A DNA stretch of 64,000 bases, from the NCBI RefSeq assembly GCF_013214165.1, contig NZ_JABSSM010000025.1, forward strand, positions 1-64,000. The letters run 5' to 3'. Below are positions 42,226 to 60,571 of this stretch, one piece after another. Both the position numbers and the translations under genes were made by a program. The notes below the pieces were generated by a model. The model saw only the letters and a list, made by a program, of their open reading frames with translations, was not told the DNA's origin and searched no databases. This DNA is from Shewanella sp. (GTDB lineage Bacteria > Pseudomonadota > Gammaproteobacteria > Enterobacterales > Shewanellaceae). Each line of letters begins with the position of its first letter. The first letter of the stretch is position 1.

Positions 42226-43263
42226 TTATGGCGAGTCAGCCTCTGGTTCTGCCCTTGTCACCCCATGCCACTGATAATGATTATTGGCTTTCTTGCTGAC
42301 TATTCCTTCATCAAACAGCCGCTTAAAAATCTCATCCACCTCATCATTGGACAAATTTAAGTACTTGCTCACCGCCCGTTTACTGCAATTCACCCAATTC
42401 AGACTTAATGCTTGCAGCACTTGCTCGTAAGGTGATTTCTCGGCTTCAGCCACTATGTCAGCATCGTCGAAATGAGACAGTAACTCGGGTGATTTACTCT
42501 CTGCCGGGTTAAACCCCTCTATGGTCAGCGGCTTCATGTTGTGGAACTGATGGCGAAAACGATTCTCCTCGCCGATGAGGCCGACGAAGAAGGCGGCGAA
42601 GAAATCTAGCAGTACCGACAGAAAGACCACCAGGCCGAGTTGAGCCGTGCTTGCCTGAATGTTCAAGAAGCTGGCTAAACTGTCGATCAAGCCAATGACA
42701 GAGCCTTGACTGACTACGGGCAAGTTATCGCGTTCCATCGCCAGGGCTTGCTGCTCCTGTCTCAGCTTATTATTCTCTTTCTGAATACGGGTCACACCGG
42801 TGGCGATCCGCTCCATCTGAATGTATTTTTCGGCGGCAACATTATTAAGCTTGATCTGTGCATCGATAGCCTGGATCTGCATGTTGTAAGCGCTCACCTT
42901 GCTCTGCTGCACATTCACATGTTCCTGAGCCTTATTGGTGGCACTGTTAATACCGCCCACTGAGCCACCGATGGAGATGACGGCCAGCACCAGATAGAAA
43001 CCCAACGCAGAGAGCATGCCCGGATAGTTACGTCTCGCATGTCGTTCACCCACCTCATACCAGGCAAAAAATTTACCCAGTTCGAAAATCACCGCCAAAC
43101 CGCCAAACAGTAACTGCATAACAGGGTCATCATCGATGGACAGAAACAGCAATAAAGAGAATACGATGGAGGCTAAGATGGAAGCGCCGGTGAAGCTATA
43201 GACGCTCCACATGGCAAACTTACCTTTCGGAAAACGCAGGGCTAAATCTTGATTGTAAAACAT
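42226..43263 (-). CDS. Unknown membrane protein with coiled coil and C-terminal winged helix
   Basis: I do not recognise this 345-residue protein. Hydrophobic segments lie at about 19-43, 50-69 and 84-106, and a fourth at about 206-232. Between the third and fourth is a polar, probably coiled-coil region (about 107-185) rich in Gln, Lys and Glu. The C-terminal part (about 275-335: YEQVLQALSLNWVNCSKRAVSKYLNL) looks like a winged helix with VDEIFKRLFDEGIVSKK as the wing-side helix. A membrane protein ending in a DNA-binding-like domain could be a one-component regulator or a phage/plasmid-type factor; neither can be shown. It is a lone gene. Confidence 0.7.
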   Translation of the reverse strand: MFYNQDLALRFPKGKFAMWSVYSFTGASILASIVFSLLLFLSIDDDPVMQLLFGGLAVIFELGKFFAWYEVGERHARRNYPGMLSALGFYLVLAVISIGGSVGGINSATNKAQEHVNVQQSKVSAYNMQIQAIDAQIKLNNVAAEKYIQMERIATGVTRIQKENNKLRQEQQALAMERDNLPVVSQGSVIGLIDSLASFLNIQASTAQLGLVVFLSVLLDFFAAFFVGLIGEENRFRHQFHNMKPLTIEGFNPAESKSPELLSHFDDADIVAEAEKSPYEQVLQALSLNWVNCSKRAVSKYLNLSNDEVDEIFKRLFDEGIVSKKANNHYQWHGVTRAEPEADSP

Positions 43264-43637: not shown

Positions 43638-44894
43638 CTAATCTCTTTGCAGGGCGACGATCGGGTCCAGTTTAGCCGCCTTCTTGGCCGGGTAGAGGCC
43701 AAAACCCACACCGATAGTCATACACACTCCCAGCGCTAACACGATGGAAAAGGGGGACCAGGCCACCGGCCAACCTGCGGCGGAAGAGATCACGAACGCC
43801 AACAAGAGGCCAACACCTATGCCTATGACGCCGCCCGTGGCCGAGATGACTATACTCTCGATAAGAAACTGGCGGGCAATATCCTTGCGCCTGGCCCCTA
43901 ACGCCCTGAGTAAGCCTATCTCAGTGGTACGCTCCATGATGGTGGCCAACATGATGTTCATGATGCCTATGCCGCCCACCAGCAAGGAGATCCCCGCCAC
44001 ACAGCCCATGACAATATTGAATATCTGTTGCGTCTGCTGATGCTGAGCCAGCAAGTCCGCCGGTACCACTATGTCATAATCTTGCTCGCCGCCATGGCGA
44101 CGCTTGAGCAGATGCCTCAGGCTCTTGGCCGCCAATGATGGCTCCACCCCTTCGGCAAGTGACACCTTAAAGGCATCTAATTCATCTTCCAGACTCTTAA
44201 AATTCATCTTCTTCAGAGCCGTGGCCAGAGGAATGAATACCTCATTGCGCTCTCCACCCAGTTTAACGCCCTGAATTTTTGACTTACCACTCTGGGCATC
44301 GGTCAACACACCCACCACGGTAAACCACTGATGATTTATCTTGATCACGCTGCCGATAGCCTTTCCTTGTGGAAACAGGCCTCTGGCAGCTTCCGGACCT
44401 AATACGGCAACTTGTCGATAATGAGCCTCATCTTTTGAATCGAAGGCGCCGCCTTCACTCATTTTCAGGGCGCTCAAGTCAAAATAACTGGGCGTCACCC
44501 CCTTAACTTGAGCATCACTACGGCCTTCTAGGCTAAATAAGCTGAAGGTTTTGATCTGCTTCTCGGCGCTCCAGTTTTCCACGAAGGGTAAGGTATCTTT
44601 GGCACTCTCAACATCTCTGAGACTCAAACCTATGCTGTGCTCTCGAATCGATTTTAGCGCTTCGCCGTCCGATGTTCTGGCGTTAACTACCAGATTTCTG
44701 ACTCCCATGGACTCGATCATCTTCAGCGATTCTCGCTCCGCGCCCTCGCCCACACTCAACATGGCTATCACGGCGCCGACACCAAATATCATACCTAACA
44801 GGGTCAGAGCCGTACGCAACTTGTGATGGCGCATCTCATCGAAGGCTTGCTTTATGCCTTCGATATAAATCTTACTCTCATCGACTAAGCTCAT
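43638..44894 (-). CDS. MacB/FtsX-type ABC transporter permease
   Basis: A 418-residue permease with the four-helix MacB layout: one helix near the N-terminus (KLRTALTLLGMIFGVGAVIAML), a large periplasmic domain (about 50-285), then three helices (VMGCVAGISLLVGGIGIMNIM, FLIESIVISATGGVIGIGVG, and FSIVLALGVCMTIGVGFGLYP). The conserved ATIMERTTEIGLLRALGA coupling segment is present. MacB-type pumps use ATP to expel periplasmic substrates through an adaptor and an outer-membrane channel. The ATPase is a separate gene at the head of the operon. AGGAG eight bases upstream and an ATGA overlap with the mini-cistron show translational coupling. The substrate is unknown. Confidence 0.88.
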   Translation of the reverse strand: MSLVDESKIYIEGIKQAFDEMRHHKLRTALTLLGMIFGVGAVIAMLSVGEGAERESLKMIESMGVRNLVVNARTSDGEALKSIREHSIGLSLRDVESAKDTLPFVENWSAEKQIKTFSLFSLEGRSDAQVKGVTPSYFDLSALKMSEGGAFDSKDEAHYRQVAVLGPEAARGLFPQGKAIGSVIKINHQWFTVVGVLTDAQSGKSKIQGVKLGGERNEVFIPLATALKKMNFKSLEDELDAFKVSLAEGVEPSLAAKSLRHLLKRRHGGEQDYDIVVPADLLAQHQQTQQIFNIVMGCVAGISLLVGGIGIMNIMLATIMERTTEIGLLRALGARRKDIARQFLIESIVISATGGVIGIGVGLLLAFVISSAAGWPVAWSPFSIVLALGVCMTIGVGFGLYPAKKAAKLDPIVALQRD

Positions 44895-44977
44895 ACTCGG
44901 CTCCTTTTGGGAGGTGTGGTAATCGCAATAACATCACCTTGGTTCTGCCTCTGGGCGATCACTGTGACGATATTCAT
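44891..44977 (-). CDS. 28-codon mini-cistron, duplicated C-terminus of the adjacent adaptor
   Basis: An ATG that overlaps the stop of the adaptor gene (ATGA at 44974-44977) opens a 28-codon frame whose stop again overlaps the permease start (ATGA at 44891-44894). Its last 17 residues (NQGDVIAITTPPKRSRV) match the last 17 of the adaptor at 16 positions, while most codons differ only at synonymous positions. The duplication period is 83 bp and includes the ribosome site AGGAG for the next gene. It is either a leftover of a tandem duplication that kept both couplings, or a short real peptide or spacer cistron. No independent function is known. Confidence 0.6.
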   Translation of the reverse strand: MNIVTVIAQRQNQGDVIAITTPPKRSRV

Positions 44978-46182
44978 ACTCGGCTCCTTTTGGGAGGCGT
45001 CGTGAGTGCAATCACATCGCCCTGGTTTAAGCCATCGGTGATCACGGTTCGATTCAGGCTACGGCTCCCTGGCGTCACCGGCTGTTTAATGAAACCGGCA
45101 CTGGTCTTAAGGTAGACCCAATATTGGCCCTCTTTCTGAAACAATGCCTGATTAGGCACAGTCAGTACATCTTGCAGATTAAGCAGATGCACCTGAGCCT
45201 TTACTTGCCTGCCCGGCTGCATGATCGCCACTAAGGTTTTATCCAGGCTGATGGTGAATTGGAAATAATTGACCGGACTGTCCTTCTCCTTAGGTTTAGC
45301 CAAGGCATCGACTTGGGTCACCTTACCGGTGAAGGGTTTATCCGGATAAGCATCCAGATAGACGGTCGCCGTCTTTCCTATGGCGAGACCCGCCGCCTCA
45401 GATTCCTGCACAAATAACTTCGCCTGCATCACAGAGGTATCGGGCAAGAGGCCGATGGAAAAACCTGACCACATCATGTCACCCACCACAGGAAACGAGC
45501 CATCCCAACCCGCCTGATAGACAAATAAGCCATCATGAGGGGCGATGATCTCCATCTGGTTGAGGTTATTCTCATAACGGTTTATCTTGGCTGAGTGACC
45601 TTTCTGCCTGAGCTTTATCAGCTCCTGCTCGGCAGCAGCCTGATCGCCATGCTGATCTAGCCCCCAATCGAAGTAATGCATCTTAGCGACAAGATAGTCT
45701 TGATTACGCATCTGATCGATAATCTCTATCTTGGTATAGACGCGCTCATCGTCACTGAAGAAACGTTCGGCTAATGCTTTTTCTTCGCTAGTCACTCGGC
45801 TACCCGTTGAGAGTGCCTGACTGATGGTCTTGTCCTTCTCTGTCTGCATCTGACTATCGAAGCTCAACTTGTCAAAATCGAACTGCTCCATCTTGAGGCG
45901 ATAATGTTCACGGGTGGGATCCATTCTGGCGACGACATCCCCAGCCTTGACTCGACTGAAGTTTTCCAAGATCCAGGCTAATGACTGTGGGCCACGTAAC
46001 CCTACCGGCACGTTCACTGAGGTAGACTCGCTGGCTTCTAGCTCTCCGGTGGCCGGAATGTCGACCTTAAAGTCGGCTCGGCTCACATCCATGGTGAGTA
46101 CCCCGTCGCTGGCCTGTTGACTGCAGCCCGCAATCCATACCAAGCTAAAAACCAGTAAGCAGTTTCTGAAACTAAACATCAT
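44974..46182 (-). CDS. HlyD/RND-type periplasmic adaptor, lipoprotein (third adaptor)
   Basis: A 402-residue membrane-fusion protein with a lipobox (VWIAGC). The lipoyl half-motifs flank a coiled-coil hairpin (about 110-200), followed by a beta-barrel part (KLFVQESEAAGLAIGKTATVYLD) and a membrane-proximal domain (LTVPNQALFQKEGQYWVYLK). It joins an inner-membrane ABC permease to an outer-membrane channel. Its start overlaps the previous adaptor's stop by four bases (ATGA), and its stop overlaps the mini-cistron in the same way. It is one of three different adaptors in one operon. Confidence 0.85.
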   Translation of the reverse strand: MMFSFRNCLLVFSLVWIAGCSQQASDGVLTMDVSRADFKVDIPATGELEASESTSVNVPVGLRGPQSLAWILENFSRVKAGDVVARMDPTREHYRLKMEQFDFDKLSFDSQMQTEKDKTISQALSTGSRVTSEEKALAERFFSDDERVYTKIEIIDQMRNQDYLVAKMHYFDWGLDQHGDQAAAEQELIKLRQKGHSAKINRYENNLNQMEIIAPHDGLFVYQAGWDGSFPVVGDMMWSGFSIGLLPDTSVMQAKLFVQESEAAGLAIGKTATVYLDAYPDKPFTGKVTQVDALAKPKEKDSPVNYFQFTISLDKTLVAIMQPGRQVKAQVHLLNLQDVLTVPNQALFQKEGQYWVYLKTSAGFIKQPVTPGSRSLNRTVITDGLNQGDVIALTTPPKRSRV

Positions 46183-47378
46183 GGCAGTAATACCTCCTGA
46201 CCCACATCGAGTCCGGTGTTTATTGATACCAGCTCTTTGCCTATGGTGCCTATGGTAACGGCTTGCTTAGACTCGCCAAACAAACTAGGTAATAGTACAT
46301 AAGCCTGACCAGCCTCGTAATGAACGGCGTCCAGTGACAACAGAAGTTCCTGTTTATCATTGGCGATATCGATGGCTATTTTTGCCGTCATACCCGGTCT
46401 CATCAGGTCGGTATCCGCTTCATTTATGCTGGCCACCGCATCGAACACCACCAGAGGCACATCCTGATTTTTATGACGAAACACGGCCCCGAGTTCGATA
46501 ATTTCTCCGTAAAAGACTTTATCCGGATTCGCATCCAGTCTTATTTTGAGTTTCTGACCTAACTTGACCCGACTCGCCTCGACCTCAGGTATGGTCATGT
46601 TCACCTGCATATGATTCAGATCCGGTATACTGAGTACCGTATCTCCCATAAAAACAGACTGACCTTCCTTAATCTTATTGCCTTGAGAATCATTACCGTA
46701 CACCACCATGCCTTCTCGGGGAGCGATTAACGTCAGGGATTTTATTCCCTTTTTAAGTGCTGCGACTTCGGAGGAGAACTTTTGTCGGTCCCCCTCTAAC
46801 ATGGCTTCTCTTTGCTTAGCACTCTGATTTTCAAGCGCTATTTTTTGCTTGTTGAGTTGCACCCTATCCTTGGCGATGACGGCATCCTTCTCATACTTGA
46901 TTCTATCGATTGCGGCGACAGTTTCATCAGACAGTTTAAATTTACGCTCCGCTTTGTCGAAACTCATCTTAGCCTCGGCGAGCGCTAGCCTCAGCTCCTC
47001 CAACTGTTTGGCATTACGCAGTTTAGATGTTTCAATGTCTTGCAGGGTCGCCTCTAACTTGGCCGTCTTGACCGATAGACGTTGGGTCAGTTCGGAGGTG
47101 TCGAGTTGAGCGACCATGTCGCCTTCTTGAACCAGGGAGCCTTCCGCTGCGAGCTGCTTGACCTGATATTGCCACACCCTACGGATCGAAGGCGGCTTCA
47201 TAGATACGGTATCGGCGGATACCAGCTCTCCGGTAGCCTCGATACTCTGTCTTAACACTCCTAGCTCCACCGAAGTCACTGCCGCCCCGCTACATGCCGT
47301 TAGCAAGGAAAGCGAAAGCAGTAAACTCGAGGGCAACAAGCGATGTGATAGCGGTGAAATCTGAAATACCTTGCTCAT
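46179..47378 (-). CDS. HlyD/RND-type periplasmic adaptor, lipoprotein (second adaptor)
   Basis: A 399-residue adaptor with a lipobox (SLLTAC). Residues about 30-75 are the first lipoyl half (VSLDTVS-type start, GSLVQEGDMVAQLDTSEL), about 80-200 is a long coiled-coil hairpin (KLEATLQDIETSKLRNAKQL), and the remainder is barrel domain (VNMTIPEVEASRVKLGQKLKI; LMRPGMTAKIAIDI). It overlaps both neighbours by ATGA. A longer coiled coil than in the third adaptor suggests the two are not simply redundant. Confidence 0.85.
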   Translation of the reverse strand: MSKVFQISPLSHRLLPSSLLLSLSLLTACSGAAVTSVELGVLRQSIEATGELVSADTVSMKPPSIRRVWQYQVKQLAAEGSLVQEGDMVAQLDTSELTQRLSVKTAKLEATLQDIETSKLRNAKQLEELRLALAEAKMSFDKAERKFKLSDETVAAIDRIKYEKDAVIAKDRVQLNKQKIALENQSAKQREAMLEGDRQKFSSEVAALKKGIKSLTLIAPREGMVVYGNDSQGNKIKEGQSVFMGDTVLSIPDLNHMQVNMTIPEVEASRVKLGQKLKIRLDANPDKVFYGEIIELGAVFRHKNQDVPLVVFDAVASINEADTDLMRPGMTAKIAIDIANDKQELLLSLDAVHYEAGQAYVLLPSLFGESKQAVTIGTIGKELVSINTGLDVGQEVLLP

Positions 47379-48424
47379 GATACGGCTCCGGTACTGACTA
47401 AGACACTCATGCCGGGAACGATCTTGATATCTTCATCGGCCGCAAAACTCACCTCAACCTTGAACCAATTACTCTGACCCCAGGCTGGCTGTTTCTGCGC
47501 CTGGCGGCCGATATTTTTAATACTGCCGCTAAACGGCTTGGCCGACTGTGAATCCAGTCTGAGTGTCACTCGGCTCCCCACGGCTAACTTGTCGACATCC
47601 ACCTCATTGACCCAGGCGACTACCTCTAGTTCTTCCATCGCCGGCACTCTGGCTATTTGCCGGCCAATCTGTACGGTATCACCGACGGCAAATTTCTTAT
47701 TACTCCAGGGATCGCTACCATAGAGCACAGGGCCTTTTATCTTGGCCTTGAGTTCGAGTTGCTCTAAGCCGTTTAATGCTTGCGCTAACTCTAATTGCGC
47801 GCGGCGCCGTTCTATGGCTAATTGCGCCTTACTGGCGGCTTGTTTGTCCAATACTTCTTTGAGCGCCTGTTCGACCTTAGATAACTCGCTGCCTGCCTGC
47901 ATCAAGTTAAATTGATTCTCGGCATAATCTTTAGCCGCGATATAATTCGCTGGCACATCGGCATCGAGCCGACTCTTCTCGAGTTCAGATTCTTGCTGTT
48001 TAACATCGAATTTGGCCTGCAGCACACTGGCGGTAAGATCGATACTCAGACTCTGCTCCTGAGCCGTGACCCGCAGCAGACTCGCCTCTAGCTGTTCGAT
48101 CTGATTGGCAATTTGGCTCTTGTCGAAGATCACCACGGTCTGACCCGGCTCGGCAATTGAGCCCTCGGGCAGCATCCACTGGATTTGATAGCGCCAGGCA
48201 TCACCGGCCTTAGGCACCATAAAGGATTGAGACTGCACCGAGGAGATCTGTCCGGTCAATAACAAGGTCTGCTCGCCTAGGTTGGCAACGCCTGAGTCTG
48301 ATACATCACTCGTCGCTGTACTGACATTCGTTTCTCCGGCCACCAGCATATTGACCGGTAAAGAAAATGCAGTCAGCAAGACAAGTTTTGATAGCAATGG
48401 AGATCGATGTAAATTAAGCCGCAT
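47375..48424 (-). CDS. HlyD-family periplasmic adaptor (first adaptor)
   Basis: An adaptor of about 349 residues with a signal peptide ([20 protein letters not shown]) but no lipobox, unlike the other two. A coiled-coil hairpin spans about 95-205, and barrel-domain blocks follow ([35 protein letters not shown]). The ATG at 48424 is chosen for its GAGGAG upstream; GTG codons at 48433 and 48430 are also in frame. It overlaps the ATPase gene by 11 bp and the next adaptor by ATGA. Confidence 0.82.
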
Positions 48425-49100
48425 AGACACCACGCTCCTCTATTTCTACGATATGGCCATCCCGCATGCGGATCACCCGCTGGGCATAGGCTGCCACTTC
48501 CTCTTCGTGGGTCACTAAGATGATGGTTTGGCCCGCCTTATGCAGCTCGGTGAATAGATCCATGATCTCCACCGATGTCTTACTGTCCAGTGCACCCGTA
48601 GGTTCATCGGCCAATAAAATAGCAGGTTTGTTCACCAGAGCCCGCGCGATGGCGACTCTTTGCCTTTGACCACCGGACAGCTGATTGGGTCTATGATTTT
48701 GACGTGAACCTAAGCCCACTCGCATCAAGAGCTCATTGGCATAGCTGGTATCGTTATTAGGCGGGATGGCAAATCGTAGCGGTAACAGCACGTTTTGCAG
48801 CGCACTCATTCTAGGCAACAAGTGAAAACTCTGAAACACGAAACCTATGTCCTTATTTCGCACCGCGGATAGCGCATCATCATCCAGGCTGGCAACCTCT
48901 TGCTCATTGAGTTGGTAGCTCCCCGAGCTAGGCTTATCCAGACAACCTATGATGTTCATCAAGGTGGATTTACCCGAGCCAGATGGCCCCATGATCGCCA
49001 CAAATTCATTTTGTTTAATGGTGAAATCGACACCTCTGAGGGCAAAAACTGACGACTCCCCCATCTGATACTCTTTAGTTAATCCATTCACTCTTATCAT
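48414..49100 (-). CDS. ABC transporter ATPase (MacB/LolD type)
   Basis: A 228-residue ATPase with all motifs: Walker [14 protein letters not shown]-loop [12 protein letters not shown], signature [15 protein letters not shown], Walker [14 protein letters not shown], and the switch His in [11 protein letters not shown]. It pairs with the FtsX-type permease four genes downstream. It is first in an operon of overlapping genes: ATPase, three adaptors, mini-cistron, permease. A 20-bp perfect palindrome about 200 bp upstream may be its operator. Confidence 0.92.
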
Positions 49101-50659: not shown

Positions 50660-50697
50660 ACTATATCTTCGTACTATATATTCGTACTATATCTTCG
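50660..50697. repeat. Three 13-bp tandem repeats across the GNAT stop codon
   Basis: Units of ACTATATNTTCGT repeat from 50660 to 50697. On the coding (minus) strand each carries TATAG, so several closely spaced TAG codons appear in different frames around the real stop at 50687-50689. Confidence 0.6.
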
Positions 50698-60050: not shown

Positions 60051-60571
60051 ACAGCTGACTCCATGTCGTATTATTTACTGTGCCGGACGCCTTAGATTTA
60101 ACAATTAGATTACACTAGTACGATAGATGTATCTATAAATATTATTTATTATTATTTAATATTATTTATTATTATTTAATATTATTTAATATTATTTAAT
60201 ATTATTTATGTATCAGCTTCAACATAGATATCAGTCATCTGGTTATTCTCATATTGGATGACATCGACATCATTACCCGCATAAAACCTGTTAGAGGCTA
60301 AGAAGATTCAATAAGGTTTTTCCCATTTTATCCATGTTTATAGGCAACATCTTGCATCCTGCTTCAACTAGTCAGACTATTGTTGTTATTATTTCGTTAA
60401 CAGCAGGCAATATAATCATCCAAAAGTATGAAGCTAGATGCCGCAAACACCCTGTTCTGACTAGCAATATAATACCTTTGCACTACCTATAAGTAGGTAC
60501 TGGCTAGCCAGTGAACATCTCATGAAAAATAGCCTGCCTCACTTACAAAAATCATTGATGATTAATACCAA
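60051..60571. other. AT-rich intergenic region
   Basis: No gene is seen. The main content is the tandem 10-bp repeat tract (60141-60209); the rest has no recognised motif. Confidence 0.5.
60141..60209. repeat. Seven 10-bp AT-only tandem repeats before the LuxR gene
   Basis: Seven consecutive units of ATTATTTAWT occupy 60141-60209 (the last one incomplete by one base). The period equals one helical turn. Such a tract could bend DNA, bind H-NS, or change copy number and so alter promoter spacing by full turns. Confidence 0.85.

Follow-up and report, generated by a model that had tools for sequence, protein, structure and literature searches.

In an ABC exporter operon of Shewanella, a 28-codon mini-cistron lies between the third adaptor gene and the permease gene, and its sequence indicates that it originated as an 83-bp tandem duplication of the adaptor-3/permease gene boundary. 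We consider it probable that this copied boundary serves as a translational relay whose copy number varies between genomes; a specific function of the encoded peptide is less likely than such a relay. As read from the DNA, the mini-cistron array is real, old and structurally unusual, its proposed mechanism is plausible, and its scope is small. Our analysis started from the window, i.e., the whole stretch of 64,000 nucleotides, in which the operon is a run of genes on the minus strand:

48414..49100, minus strand: ABC ATPase gene, first of the run (228 aa), overlapping adaptor gene 1 by 20 nt
47375..48433, minus strand: adaptor gene 1 (352 aa; listed with a GTG start), in 4-nt overlap with adaptor gene 2
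46179..47378, minus strand: adaptor gene 2 (399 aa), in 4-nt overlap with adaptor gene 3
44974..46182, minus strand: adaptor gene 3, encoding a membrane-fusion protein of the HlyD-like kind (402 aa)
44891..44977, minus strand: mini-cistron between adaptor gene 3 and the permease gene, 28 codons from ATG to TGA
43638..44894, minus strand: MacB-like permease gene with MacB_PCD and FtsX domains (418 aa)

Pfam and NCBIfam profile searches matched the adaptors to HlyD-type families. The permease scored 128.7 bits with Pfam PF12704 (cut-off 27) and 84.7 bits with PF02687 (cut-off 25.5), i.e., it carries both the MacB periplasmic core and the FtsX domain expected of a MacB-type ABC exporter permease, and solved MacB structures were its top sequence matches. 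The N-terminal ATPase that is a trait of MacB itself is not present on the permease chain, the match to NCBIfam PRK10535 being partial (positions 255-647 only; 219 bits vs. a cut-off of 966). The operon shares an ATPase, adaptors and a MacB_PCD/FtsX permease with MacA-MacB and LolD-type ABC export operons, but differs from them in possessing three adaptor genes, separate genes for ATPase and permease, and a mini-cistron in front of the permease. Downstream of the permease, a 345-aa ORF (42226-43263, minus strand) had no Pfam or NCBIfam match at E 0.001.

The mini-cistron (44977..44891, minus strand) is translated as MNIVTVIAQRQNQGDVIAITTPPKRSRV, followed by a stop codon, and 4-nt overlaps link adaptor 3 to it and it to the permease, as they link the successive adaptors to each other. 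Its signals and the repeat unit, whose boundaries were placed by inspection, are:

44974..44977, minus strand: ATGA overlap of the adaptor-3 stop with the mini-ORF start
44891..44894, minus strand: ATGA overlap of the mini-ORF stop with the permease start
44984..44988, minus strand: AGGAG ribosome-binding motif of the mini-ORF, within the last codons of adaptor 3
44901..44905, minus strand: AGGAG ribosome-binding motif of the permease, within the last codons of the mini-ORF
44966..45048, minus strand: first copy of the putative 83-nt repeat unit, made up of the adaptor tail and the 12-nt mini-ORF start
44883..44965, minus strand: second copy of the putative 83-nt repeat unit, made up of the mini-ORF tail and the 12-nt permease start

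The initial annotation had proposed an 83-bp period at the end of adaptor 3, with a copy that opens and closes on ATGA overlaps, keeps its ribosome site and differs almost only synonymously over its last 17 codons, and our analyses bear this out. Tandem Repeats Finder reported period 83 at 44891-45045 (79% matches, score 203), and a repeat search of the window aligned 44891-44965 with 44974-45048 at 77% match. AGGAG precedes both ATGA overlaps at a spacing of 6 nt, and among the last 17 codons seven differ between mini-ORF and adaptor tail, six synonymously and one by a Leu to Ile change. The description of the repeat as the end of the third adaptor holds for the adaptor tail but is too narrow, since the unit seems to comprise 24 adaptor-tail codons together with the first 12 nt of the permease, which would make the mini-ORF a fusion of permease start and adaptor tail. 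Indeed, codons 1-4 of the mini-ORF resemble the permease start and the remaining 24 the adaptor tail; in the window, 8 of the 12 nt are identical to the permease start, and the clearest case is S. benthica KT99, in which both mini-ORFs start with MSLV, as the permease does. Because 83 leaves a remainder of 2 on division by 3 and the ATGA overlap shifts the frame by -1, the duplicate is in frame by construction. The second ATGA is thus a consequence of the duplication and requires no separate coincidence.

We postulate that a ribosome would end adaptor 3 at the first ATGA, restart there on the AGGAG site, translate the 28 codons, end at the second ATGA and restart on the permease. If termination-reinitiation is what supplies the permease with ribosomes, the copy would be both tolerated and kept open, whereas a stop or frameshift within it would release ribosomes far from the permease start. 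Recombination between units may lead to the gain, loss and partial homogenisation of copies. Accordingly worded, the relay implies coupling at this junction, a peptide without a specific role of its own and copy turnover by a recombination route, all of which we infer. Coupling at 4-nt overlaps is well documented elsewhere. In the available part of one report, such overlaps conferred coupling in 13 of 14 tested pairs from E. coli and Haloferax, with one of the five E. coli pairs showing none (PMC6728339). The accessible text of another states that spacings near -4 to +3 couple best and that coupling declines by some 30-40 nt in most studies (PMC12548453). An open copy that closes on the permease start would be tolerated because a frameless 83-nt insert would leave the adaptor stop well outside the coupling range.

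The distribution of the mini-cistron was read from 129 same-genus genomes, in which the permease was sought; 60 were counted at E <= 1e-100, the window among them, and each junction was read. Related named records were Shewanella at 15/15 loci. The adaptor-3 stop overlaps a start codon at every one of the 60 junctions (55 ATGA, 3 TAATG, 1 GTGA, 1 TGATG), and coupling is therefore the conserved trait; stop and start codons likewise overlap at both ends of all mini-ORFs. The overlapped start is that of the in-frame permease in 54 genomes, despite the variable length of the permease N-terminus, and that of a mini-ORF in the other six; AGGAG or AGGAA is found at 55/60 adaptor-3 junctions. Ten mini-cistrons were present altogether, with one copy in the window, G010 and G082, two in G070 and G071, and three in G149. 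The junction sequences of G070 and G071 are identical to the named loci L068 and L069, which identifies them as S. benthica DSM 8812 and KT99, respectively; G149 is presumably S. violacea DSS12 and G010 S. psychrophila WP2. All ten mini-ORFs are open, chained by ATGA at both ends and closed by AGGAG-N6-ATGA, so that a Shine-Dalgarno motif lies inside the upstream ORF at spacing 6 before every start of the array. The unit is 83 or 95 bp long, the difference being 12 nt in phase; in G149 (locus L043) an ATAGTC-type repeat (IVIVIV) has expanded in the three mini-ORFs and lengthens them by 12 nt in phase. Many other Shewanella genomes (L056-L067 and others) possess, instead of a mini-ORF, an N-terminal extension of the permease on the same overlap start, which makes it longer than the permease of the window by about 32 codons at most. 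None of the 60 junctions showed a broken copy. Hence, absence from all relatives combined with frameshifts in sister strains, the outcome that the initial annotation had named as contrary to its reading, is not what these genomes present: six of 60 operons hold one to three open copies. An assembly artefact is argued against by the fact that G010, G149 and G082 are on single-contig or complete-looking chromosomes.

In the seven genomes compared, the arrangement is confined to this operon. The pattern AGGAG-N6-ATGA-N58..90-AGGAG-N6-ATGA gave 10 matches in seven whole genomes, one for each of the ten mini-ORFs, against zero in the reversed control of these genomes. Across 369 genomes of the class, it was matched in the window and in three other genomes, once each, and the reversed control gave three matches, all in one genome. 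BLAST searches of the seven genomes with the repeat unit turned up this operon alone (other matches at E 0.029 or worse), by which a dispersed element is ruled out. The same search speaks against horizontal recombination from a related operon as the source of the copy, a reading that would account for the 23% divergence between the two copies in the window and for the similarity of the mini-ORFs of the window and G082 (8/54 nt differ) despite the saturated synonymous distance of the genes. Since the local boundary accounts for the unit, G010, G149 and S. benthica carry it at the same place, and the mini-ORFs of five genomes have bases in common that the adaptor tails lack, a foreign source is not needed, and we regard it as very improbable.

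Trees of the permease and adaptor 3 from 15 genomes, at the nucleotide and protein level, bear on the age of the copies. G003, in which there is no mini-cistron and which shares 97% (permease) and 96% (adaptor) protein identity with the window, falls into a strongly supported clade (100/99 on nucleotides) together with both S. benthica strains and the window, and this clade branches inside G149 and G010. Being nested within mini-bearing genomes, its zero state is most simply explained by loss, and the absence in this close relative is probably such a loss. The protein tree places G082 beside the group of the window, S. benthica and G003 (91/87), a topology that by inspection needs one gain and one loss; in the nucleotide tree its position relative to a mini-less genome is not settled (44/13), and the count is three changes. 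Moreover, the codons GCG ATT are common to five mini-ORFs (window, DSM 8812 no. 1, KT99 no. 2, G149 no. 2 and G082), and the adaptor tails of the seven genomes read GCN CTN. Bases that are common to the mini-ORFs of five genomes and occur in no adaptor tail indicate a shared, old copy (type A). Other copies are younger, e.g., KT99 no. 1, which differs from its own adaptor tail at 3/54 nt, and in S. benthica and G149 adjacent units are similar to each other. The array thus turns over by duplication and loss, and probably also by conversion.

This turnover is what a neutral tandem repeat would display as well: a by-product of slippage or unequal recombination, kept open mainly by recency and conversion, that leaves permease level and fitness unchanged. 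Copy numbers of 0-3 among close relatives and the concerted evolution visible in KT99, S. benthica and G149 are in line with it. Openness alone is weak evidence of selection, since a neutral simulation left 20 codons open throughout the five type-A genomes in 14% of runs from one starting sequence and in 17% from another (neutral P 0.14-0.17; the simulation comprised substitutions only, and indels would lower these values), and we therefore do not take openness as proof of selection. In addition, the variable sites of type-A mini-ORFs are spread nearly evenly over codon positions 1, 2 and 3 (7, 9 and 10, vs. 2, 4 and 17 in the adaptor tails), which also speaks against strong selection on the peptide. 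A recent neutral origin is nevertheless at odds with the type-A diagnostic bases, which are common to five genomes that include one at saturated synonymous distance, and thus old. The invariant left ribosome site is stronger evidence than openness: AGG AGC CGA GTA, the four final codons of the adaptor, do not vary among the six mini-bearing genomes, in which they constitute the ribosome site and start region of the mini-ORF and not of the permease. Under synonymous-only evolution from that state at the operon's rate, such invariance has a P of about 0.0007. Against this, runs of four identical codons recur at three other places in the adaptor. Over the whole adaptor, 82 of the 306 amino-acid-invariant codons other than Met and Trp are fully identical among the six genomes.

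Substitution rates were estimated on the operon tree from six genomes, one mini-ORF each, over the 19 codons before KRSRV. With omega at 0.043 in the codon model of the operon, the mini-ORF yielded 0.23 on the fixed neutral scale of the operon and 0.30 with a free rate scale (0.34 without G010), and neutrality (omega=1) was rejected clearly in the former case (2dlnL 51) and more weakly in the latter (2dlnL 9.7; 5.5 without G010). For the adaptor tail, the same six genomes yielded 0.087 on the fixed scale and 0.041 on the free one; the higher omega of the mini-ORF means that its peptide is constrained several-fold less than the parent adaptor tail. Close pairs agree with this weak constraint: between the mini-ORFs of the window and DSM 8812 (no. 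1), dN (0.21) equals the dS of the operon (0.21-0.26). Concerted evolution confounds these rate estimates. Taken together, we regard the purely neutral repeat as unlikely.

An omega below 1, along with the NQGDVIA part largely kept in the ten mini-ORFs, could also reflect a functional 28-residue peptide, which might act as a cytoplasmic regulator or imitate the adaptor C-terminus as a decoy. Such constraint can, however, arise at the nucleotide level or from conversion, the N-terminal half and the PP motif vary freely, and G003 does entirely without a mini-ORF. The mini-ORF has no Pfam match and no signal sequence by eye, and the peptide copy would therefore not reach the periplasm, while the adaptor has a lipoprotein-like signal (also by eye). 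Hence, we consider a functional peptide quite improbable, and the earlier idea of a small membrane-exporter peptide, given also the weaker constraint relative to the adaptor tail, finds no support. The alternative offered with it, a translational spacer, fits best; it may lower permease synthesis, as suggested there, leave it unchanged or increase it. The relay itself has to be weighed against two further points: gene conversion from the adaptor tail could by itself keep copies open and lower omega, and the AGGAG sites could start translation without coupling.

A further rival reading, which we consider rather unlikely, is a copy-number rheostat. Each added reinitiation step might shift the permease:adaptor ratio, such that copy number tunes the exporter and is under selection; the occurrence of 0, 1, 2 or 3 copies in seven close genomes with intact coupling sites fits this possibility. 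Predicted ribosome-site accessibility, however, is not consistently different by copy number: the mean unpaired probability of the SD-ATGA stretch was 0.32-0.49 vs. a local mean of 0.40-0.46, with no copy-number trend (nine of ten loci, UCD-KL12 left out), on which ground a structure-controlled attenuator was rejected. Fusion of adaptor and mini-ORF by a -1 frameshift was likewise set aside, no classical slippery heptamer being seen by eye. Somewhat more speculatively, and in our view doubtful, duplication of an ATGA boundary might automatically yield an in-frame, self-coupled mini-cistron, so that unequal recombination, adding or removing single steps of ribosome transfer, would set the permease dose and one array could drift towards a new small gene.

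Mycobacterial MIRUs, the copy number of which varies, are the closest parallel to the relay proposed here, although the array does not belong to them. In the available part of PMC12548453, the ORF of the repeat is described as coupling to the neighbour gene through a -4 nt overlap, with an insertion that little affects expression (Supply et al., 1997), and all ten Shewanella mini-ORFs likewise join their neighbours through -4 nt overlaps. MIRUs are dispersed and apparently mobile in mycobacteria, whereas the Shewanella unit was found at one locus by BLAST of seven genomes. Host and sequence family differ as well, since the unit resides in Shewanella and is a copy of the gene boundary of its own locus, by which, and not by comparison with MIRU sequences, we set it apart. 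Termination-reinitiation at ATGA overlaps, as described in the available part of PMC6728339, shares the 4-nt overlap and the Shine-Dalgarno motif inside the upstream gene, but such pairs are usually two real genes, while duplicated mini-ORFs stand in between here. Salmonella mgtQ, between mgtC and mgtB, is also a short intergenic ORF affecting translation of a transporter gene; it reportedly acts by alternative stem-loops and ribosome-destabilising residues, and the accessible portion of PMC8092293 mentions neither an overlap chain nor a tandem copy. A literature search by title and start of abstract, with subscription papers outside it, retrieved no such Shewanella array.

Our findings imply that a gene boundary can be copied into a chain of coupled mini-cistrons with the operon remaining unbroken, which suggests a birth route for MIRU-like spacers and small coupled ORFs. 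With alleles of 0, 1, 2 and 3 copies occurring naturally in close relatives, it becomes testable whether a termination-reinitiation step reduces downstream expression. Elsewhere in the window, Tandem Repeats Finder reported two shorter arrays, AATATTATTT at 60138-60208 (10-bp, 7.1 copies) and ACTATATCTTCGT at 50660-50697 (13-bp, 2.9 copies).
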